Of a stretch of DNA of 64,000 nucleotides, positions 50,039-50,978 are shown one piece after another. The notes below the pieces were generated by a model. That model did not search any database. It was not told where the DNA came from and saw only the letters and a program-made list of their open reading frames with translations. Each line of letters starts with the position of its first letter. Within the stretch, counting starts at the first letter, position 1. Position numbers and translations under genes: made by a program. This DNA is from Thermoleophilaceae bacterium (GTDB lineage Bacteria; Actinomycetota; Thermoleophilia; Solirubrobacterales; Thermoleophilaceae): positions 62,001 through 126,000 of the forward strand of contig JBBDYQ010000010.1 of NCBI GenBank assembly GCA_040901445.1, in the 5' to 3' direction.

Positions 50039-50083
50039 AATGGGCGGTGCCCGGCTCGAACGGGCGACCTCCTGCTTGTAAGG
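50039..50083 (-). repeat. Displaced 3' half of tRNA-Val (left attachment site)
   Basis: These 45 bases are identical to 50904-50948: the 3' half of the intact tRNA-Val plus two flanking bases, ending in the anticodon stem. No 5' half is present. The configuration mirrors the tRNA-Asp repeat at 15293. Confidence 0.92.
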
Positions 50084-50298
50084 AGCGAGCAGCTCCTGCT
50101 TTCTGTTGCCATGGATGCCGAATGGTCCTTCGGAAGCGGGTCCCCTCAACAAGGCGTACCCAGGCTGCTGCTACCTGGTGCGCTTTGCTGCTTCCAATGC
50201 GCTTCCAGATTGGGGCGTGACTTCGCGTACGTCGCCAGCCGGCGTTCCAGGCCGCGCTACAGCCGTACTCGGCCGTTCCCGCGGAGATGCTCCGTTGA

Positions 50299-50342
50299 CG
50301 GTCGCCTGACAGCCGACCGGCCGCTCTCCCTTCAGGCGACCG
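50299..50342 (-). terminator. Hairpin after the cassette membrane-protein gene
   Basis: CGGTCGCCTGA (50299-50309) and TCAGGCGACCG (50332-50342) form a perfect 11-bp stem with a 22-nt loop, directly following the TAG of the minus-strand gene. Confidence 0.55.
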
Positions 50343-50711
50343 CTACCTGTCGTCGTCGAGCACGTTGCCCTCTTCGCGTCGCAGCAGCCACGCACCAAGC
50401 AGCGCCAGCCCGGCGGCGAGCGACGCCAGCACGGCGGCCTCGAAGAACGCTGCGCTGAGGTCTCGGGCGAGCGTCAGGGGGGCGACGTCACCGCCGAACG
50501 TGTCGGCTTCGTCGAGCGTCTGATGCTTGATCGTCGTGTAGAGGTCGAGTGCGAGCACCGCGGCGGCGGCCGCGGCCGTGATGCGACTGACCCAGAACAC
50601 CACGGCCCCGGACGACGTCGCCGGCGAGGCGGGGAAGACCCGGATCGCCGCGCCGAGTCCGGCGGCGAGGGCGAGCACGGCGATCACGACGACCAGCCCT
50701 GTCTCGGACAT
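50343..50711 (-). CDS. Small membrane protein carried by the tRNA-Val cassette
   Basis: The 122-aa protein has three hydrophobic segments (LVVVIAVLALAAGLGAAIRV, VVFWVSRITAAAAAAVLALD, FFEAAVLASLAAGLALLGAW) with an extracytoplasmic-looking loop (TIKHQTLDEADTFGGDVAPL) and an acidic tail. GGAGGTA 5-6 nt before ATG 50711 is a good ribosome-binding site. The family is not recognised. As the only gene of the cassette it is the candidate cargo. Confidence 0.68.
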   Translation of the reverse strand: MSETGLVVVIAVLALAAGLGAAIRVFPASPATSSGAVVFWVSRITAAAAAAVLALDLYTTIKHQTLDEADTFGGDVAPLTLARDLSAAFFEAAVLASLAAGLALLGAWLLRREEGNVLDDDR

Positions 50712-50905
50712 CAGCTACCTCCAGGTCGAGCGGCAGCGTCCCCGCCTTCGGCAGACGCTACTCGAGCGCGACCAGGAGCGCCAGGAACCTGCTGCGCGCT
50801 CACGCGAGCTCGAGTGCCGCGGCCATCGGAAGCTGCGGCCTGATCCCGGCGCGCGGCCGCCCGCCTGCTCACGTCCTGTTGTGGAGCGAAAAGTCCGGCG
50901 GCTAA

Positions 50906-50978
50906 TGGGCGGTGCCCGGCTCGAACGGGCGACCTCCTGCTTGTAAGGCAGGCGCTCTACCAGCTGAGCTAACCGCCC
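50906..50978 (-). tRNA. tRNA-Val(TAC)
   Basis: The full cloverleaf is present: acceptor GGGCGGT/ACCGCCC, D-arm GCTC/GAGC, anticodon arm CCTGC-CTTACAA-GCAGG (anticodon TAC), T-arm GCCCG-TTCGAGC-CGGGC and discriminator A. No CCA is encoded. Its 3' half is duplicated at 50039-50083. Confidence 0.96.

Follow-up and report, generated by a model that had tools for sequence, protein, structure and literature searches.

Cis-mobilizable elements (CIMEs) are decayed integrative and conjugative elements (ICEs) or integrative and mobilizable elements (IMEs) which keep both attachment (att) sites, attL and attR (PMC5704250). Gene cassettes which are targeted to tRNA genes and possess a repeat of the partial tRNA at one end occur in 'Ca. 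Actinomarinales' (PMC7771536), and tRNA-targeted cassettes of additive flexible genomic islands were described for Alteromonas (PMC4119200). In Methylophilaceae, the islands of flexible genomic island 2 (fGI-2) follow 20-nt repeats of tRNA-Lys and extend from 330 bp with one coding sequence to 42 kb; tycheposons, as described in the same study, are cargo carriers of 4-200 kb located at tRNAs and equipped with a tyrosine recombinase (PMC10872708). Fragments of tRNAs resulting from integration are expected throughout the prokaryotes (PMC9897764). The present analysis deals with an 820-bp segment located between an intact tRNA-Val(TAC) gene and a second copy of its 3' half, in which a small membrane protein (open reading frame ORF122) is encoded. 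It was detected in the window, i.e. the whole stretch of 64,000 nucleotides analyzed here (contig JBBDYQ010000010.1, positions 62,001 to 126,000). Since CIMEs, tRNA cassettes and the small islands of Methylophilaceae have already been described, the segment is a very small case of a known kind.

With a probability of roughly two thirds, the segment is a CIME-like deletion remnant of an integrative element, and this origin is favored over that of a passenger moved in trans. Like a CIME, it keeps two att-type copies, lies at the 3' end of a tRNA gene and is devoid of genes for integration and transfer, the recombination genes having presumably been lost; the host genome also harbors integrase-bearing elements. 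However, CIMEs are defined by their descent from ICEs or IMEs and are tested by excision or cis-mobilization, so that the assignment of the segment is putative, and with 820 bp and one gene it is very small. It shares the tRNA-bordered cargo with the tycheposons, but is far smaller and lacks a recombinase. The cassettes of the flexible islands belong to other lineages and are combined in one large island, whereas the short segments of the host genome are distributed over several tRNAs.

The tRNA-Val(TAC) repeat and ORF122

A repeat search of the window revealed a perfect direct repeat of 45 bp (100% identity, spacing 865 bp; Table 1), and the duplication reported in the preliminary description was thereby confirmed to the base. 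Only a single intact tRNA-Val(TAC) was detected. The repeat comprises positions 31-73 of this tRNA and 2 nt past its 3' end, so that the 3' half alone is duplicated, and a 42-bp core of the repeat occurs exactly twice in the whole host genome if up to three mismatches are allowed. In the orientation of the tRNA, tRNA-Val is followed by the segment, the displaced 3' half and greA. An intact tRNA is thus present on one side and an identical 3' half of the same orientation on the other side, which is the arrangement of a tRNA 3'-half insertion.

When tyrosine integrases act at the 3' end of a tRNA gene, the incoming element completes the tRNA anew and the former 3' half ends up on the far side; the anticodon loop is a classical place of the crossover. 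The repeat starts at the beginning of the anticodon loop of tRNA-Val(TAC), and the displaced copy diverges from the tRNA sequence just upstream of this loop, which is expected for a crossover in or beside the loop. Judged from this anatomy, which also supports the site-specific insertion proposed earlier, the repeat is an attL/attR-type pair of a putative integration by a tyrosine recombinase. If no mobile element was involved, a part of the tRNA would have been duplicated around a resident gene by copying or illegitimate recombination, and a half copy at a spacing of 17 bp in a relative (G007) could have arisen in this way. However, the start of the repeat lies within the anticodon loop, as does that of the repeats at tRNA-Asp, tRNA-Gly and tRNA-Thr of the host genome, and integrase-bearing elements of the same anatomy occupy the same tRNA in relatives, which makes a duplication of this kind highly improbable.

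Table 1. Features of the tRNA-Val(TAC) region and further features of the window.
Feature	Position	Strand	Remarks
Intact tRNA-Val(TAC)	50906..50978	-	putative integration target, 3' half re-supplied by the element; ARAGORN, Rfam
attL-type 45-bp repeat copy	50904..50948	-	anticodon loop to 3' end + 2 nt
Proximal non-coding end	50723..50903	.	tRNA to ORF122
GGAGG Shine-Dalgarno sequence	50718..50722	-	6 nt ahead of the ORF122 ATG
ORF122	50343..50711	-	small membrane protein, three hydrophobic stretches, sole gene of the segment
Hairpin	50298..50343	-	directly 3' of the ORF122 stop, no T-run
Distal non-coding end	50084..50297	.	beside the displaced half, GC about 61-63%, without integrase trace
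attR-type repeat copy	50039..50083	-	displaced 3' half of the tRNA, on the chromosomal side toward greA
greA/greB-type gene	49459..49917	-	first beyond the displaced half; chromosomal flank outside the insert
nucS	48024..48692		
tRNA-Asp(GTC) and its segment	15293..28247		perfect 45-bp 3'-half repeat 12.8 kb downstream

The 820 bp between both repeat copies contain one convincing gene, ORF122, which encodes 122 amino acids from an ATG start. With a codon model trained on the host genome, its frame scored +32.9 and the other five frames were negative; the GC contents at the three codon positions were 0.74, 0.51 and 0.89. Because of this score and composition, ORF122 was judged to be a real gene. 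Gene and ribosome-binding site had been predicted correctly; the hairpin which had been taken for a terminator (-35.6 kcal/mol, z -3.2) has no T-run and is a plausible candidate for this function.

ORF122 belongs to no family of Pfam, NCBIfam or PADLOC, and the best PHROG match had an E value of only 0.07. No homologues were found in the genomes of the family, in contigs of 84,980 species, in viral contigs or in phages. Weak matches were obtained in searches of the order and the class, and a profile of two sequences retrieved three distant homologues, all of which belong to a single genus in a different family of the order. None of these three was seen between tRNA repeats; a tRNA-Tyr near one of them showed no 3'-half copy in the stretch examined. 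In genome G181, a distant homologue and a phage-type integrase are about 7-8 kb apart, SSB and a transposase being encoded in between, and this neighborhood suggests a connection of the homologue to mobile elements. As far as the sequence evidence reaches, ORF122 is a small membrane protein of rare occurrence which was probably taken along as cargo.

tRNA-Val as an insertion site in the family

Twenty tRNA-Val loci of the family, including that of the window, were compared. In 11 of the 20 loci, the same conserved gene lies upstream of tRNA-Val; the content downstream is different in nearly every genome. In genome G030, a 9.1-kb element with an intact integrase of 464 amino acids (PF00589) directly after the tRNA ends with a 3' half (positions 30-73), and a 7.8-kb element of genome G028 possesses an intact integrase at its far end. 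A larger island with an integrase at the same tRNA in relatives had been named beforehand as a sign of a remnant, and these elements correspond to it. They share with the 820-bp segment the target tRNA-Val(TAC) and the 3'-half repeat, but differ from it by their size and their tyrosine integrase, and no sequence in common with the segment was detected. Because these islands are unrelated to it in content, they prove a hotspot and not a direct descent.

Two tandem segments without integrase (3.35 and about 4.5 kb) follow tRNA-Val in G007. The downstream flank of the host tRNA-Val is not closely shared by the family loci, and no viral contig carried the att core of the segment. Two candidates for an ancestral flank were rejected: greA does not adjoin tRNA-Val in the family loci, and nucS is common to one relative only (G021, at a distance of 3.2 kb).

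Short segments at other tRNA genes and the origin of the 820-bp segment

The regions downstream of every tRNA (46-47 per genome) were surveyed for 3'-half repeats, over 12-16 kb in the host genome and over 12 kb in G007, G008 and G030. Downstream matches on the same strand numbered 8, 12, 5 and 3, respectively, a few of them being one fragment matched by two tRNAs, in comparison to 0, 2, 0 and 0 on the opposite strand, which excludes chance. In the host genome, four further short segments without integrase are bounded by tRNA 3' halves. Beside the Val segment (0.82 kb, ORF122), these are a Gly segment of 1.5 kb, the sole gene of which encodes a Fic protein (PADLOC SoFic model, E 9e-68), a second Gly segment of 2.6 kb in tandem after the first (histidine kinase, response regulator and a small lipoprotein-like ORF), a Thr segment of 2.8 kb (alpha/beta hydrolases) and a Ser segment of 3.1 kb (two RibD_C proteins and a methyltransferase). 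Furthermore, a Glu segment of 9.1 kb with an intact integrase and an Asp segment of 12.8 kb without integrase (transposase parts, HNH, PIN and DUF433 proteins) were identified. Short segments lacking an integrase are thus common in the host genome and its relatives, and the uniqueness implied for the 820-bp segment in the preliminary description was wrong. An occupied and an empty site of this kind can be compared directly: tRNA-Tyr and tRNA-Thr are adjacent in G000 and G007, but in G008 a 4.45-kb insert without integrase (L200, G008:C1:385347-390021) separates them and carries at its far end a Tyr 3' half (88%).

Taken alone, the 820-bp segment is a small insertion scar. Together with the survey, it indicates that the tRNA genes of a little-studied lineage bear many short segments without integrase, one of them holding only a SoFic-type defense gene; annotation tools which require an integrase would miss such segments.

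Integrases were detected with a profile of 15 family integrases and with PF00589, serine recombinases not being searched separately. Across the four genomes, intact integrases were confined to segments of 9.1, 9.1 and 9.8 kb, and broken ones occurred in segments of 2.9, 3.9, 7.4 and 10.6 kb; the remainder lacked an integrase. No size was preferred among the segments, the shortest measuring 17 bp and the longest about 12.5 kb. The difference in size between segments with an intact integrase and all others (p about 0.01-0.02) is only indicative, since hand-made approximations were used for several of the lengths and segments in tandem do not count as independent cases; moreover, the 7.8-kb element of G028, which lies outside the survey, has an intact integrase below 9 kb, and this size is therefore not a strict limit. 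A graded series of decay is thus present, and the 820-bp segment, in which no integrase-like residue was found in six frames, does not have the integrase of its own that characterizes autonomous integrative elements (ICE, IME, prophage or satellite).

It is likely that an integrative element entered tRNA-Val(TAC) at the anticodon loop through recombination by a tyrosine recombinase. The copy of the tRNA 3' half which it brought along would have made the tRNA gene complete again (attL), and the resident 3' half would have come to lie on the far side (attR). The integrase and most of the remaining genes of the formerly larger element may then have been lost by an internal deletion, so that only a single gene for a small membrane protein would have stayed between two intact att-type copies, and the segment would no longer be able to move by itself. 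Such a remnant is favored because integration followed by loss accounts best for the repeat, the hotspot and the graded series. Several observations weigh against it. The displaced half is still identical in 45 of 45 positions, which points either to a recent event or to a conserved fragment; the traceless loss of an integrase would then be a large and recent deletion. All five short segments of the host genome (Val, two Gly, Thr and Ser) lack even a fragment of an integrase. The sequence searches revealed no related longer element, neither an ICE or IME as ancestor nor any larger relative of the segment, and the descent from a longer element hence remains putative. Among the genomes compared, in which the host is the only member of its genus, no empty tRNA-Val site with the same flank was found.

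Some of these observations would fit a non-autonomous cargo cassette which was without an integrase from the outset and entered tRNA-Val with the aid of an integrase of another element, acting in trans. Two single-gene segments occur in one genome (ORF122 and SoFic at tRNA-Gly), the repeats of the five short segments without integrase are 88-100% identical, and the identity of 45/45 at tRNA-Val indicates a recent event. In addition, the tandem Gly segments (L104 625-4873, own genome C8) carry different cargo and no integrase and share 52 bp (88%) at their far ends next to the repeat, as would be the case under one integrase. However, common ends or cargo at several sites, as in a family of trans-mobilized cassettes, are restricted to this shared end; the Val segment has no end in common with any other segment, the other Val elements included, and the segments have no characteristic size. 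Neither the segment nor ORF122 was found between tRNA repeats elsewhere in the sequences searched, and the expectation that the gene would recur in this position, which had been put forward in favor of a cassette, was not borne out. A helper resembling the integrase of G030 was considered and rejected, because at a threshold of E 1e-10 the host genome contains no close relative of that tRNA-Val integrase, although other integrases are present. An insertion in trans is thus possible but unlikely. Even more doubtful is its extension to the whole family, in which cassettes with one or few genes and without integrase (ORF122, SoFic, the two-component system, RibD_C pairs) would be inserted in trans at many tRNAs, as a tRNA-based counterpart of integron cassettes.

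The segment could also have been left between att copies after a neighboring element at the same tRNA was excised or lost. Tandem segments at one tRNA do occur in the family (Gly in G000, Val in G007 and others), and accretion of CIMEs has been described (PMC5704250). Only two repeat copies are present, though, and nothing indicates a third one. Such an accretion, which is compatible with a deletion remnant and partly a version of it, has little probability as a separate origin.

Further observations in the window and the genomes compared

The shortest spacing found was that of a 43-nt 3'-half copy (95%) located 17 bp after a tRNA in G007 (G007:C1:621046-621179, L171). Integrases close downstream of tRNAs were also detected at L120 (host C23:7302-8542), L113 (C17:1835-3374) and L119 (C22:304774-306139), without a clear 3'-half repeat within the stretch examined; the integrase of C17 contains an in-frame stop. 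The segment at tRNA-Asp(GTC) in the window (Table 1) encodes IS3-type transposase parts and a PIN-like protein and no PF00589 integrase. The best named relatives of nucS were metagenome-assembled genomes and isolates of Thermoleophilaceae and Solirubrobacteraceae, and therefore the host is an actinobacterium of the Thermoleophilaceae/Solirubrobacterales type.
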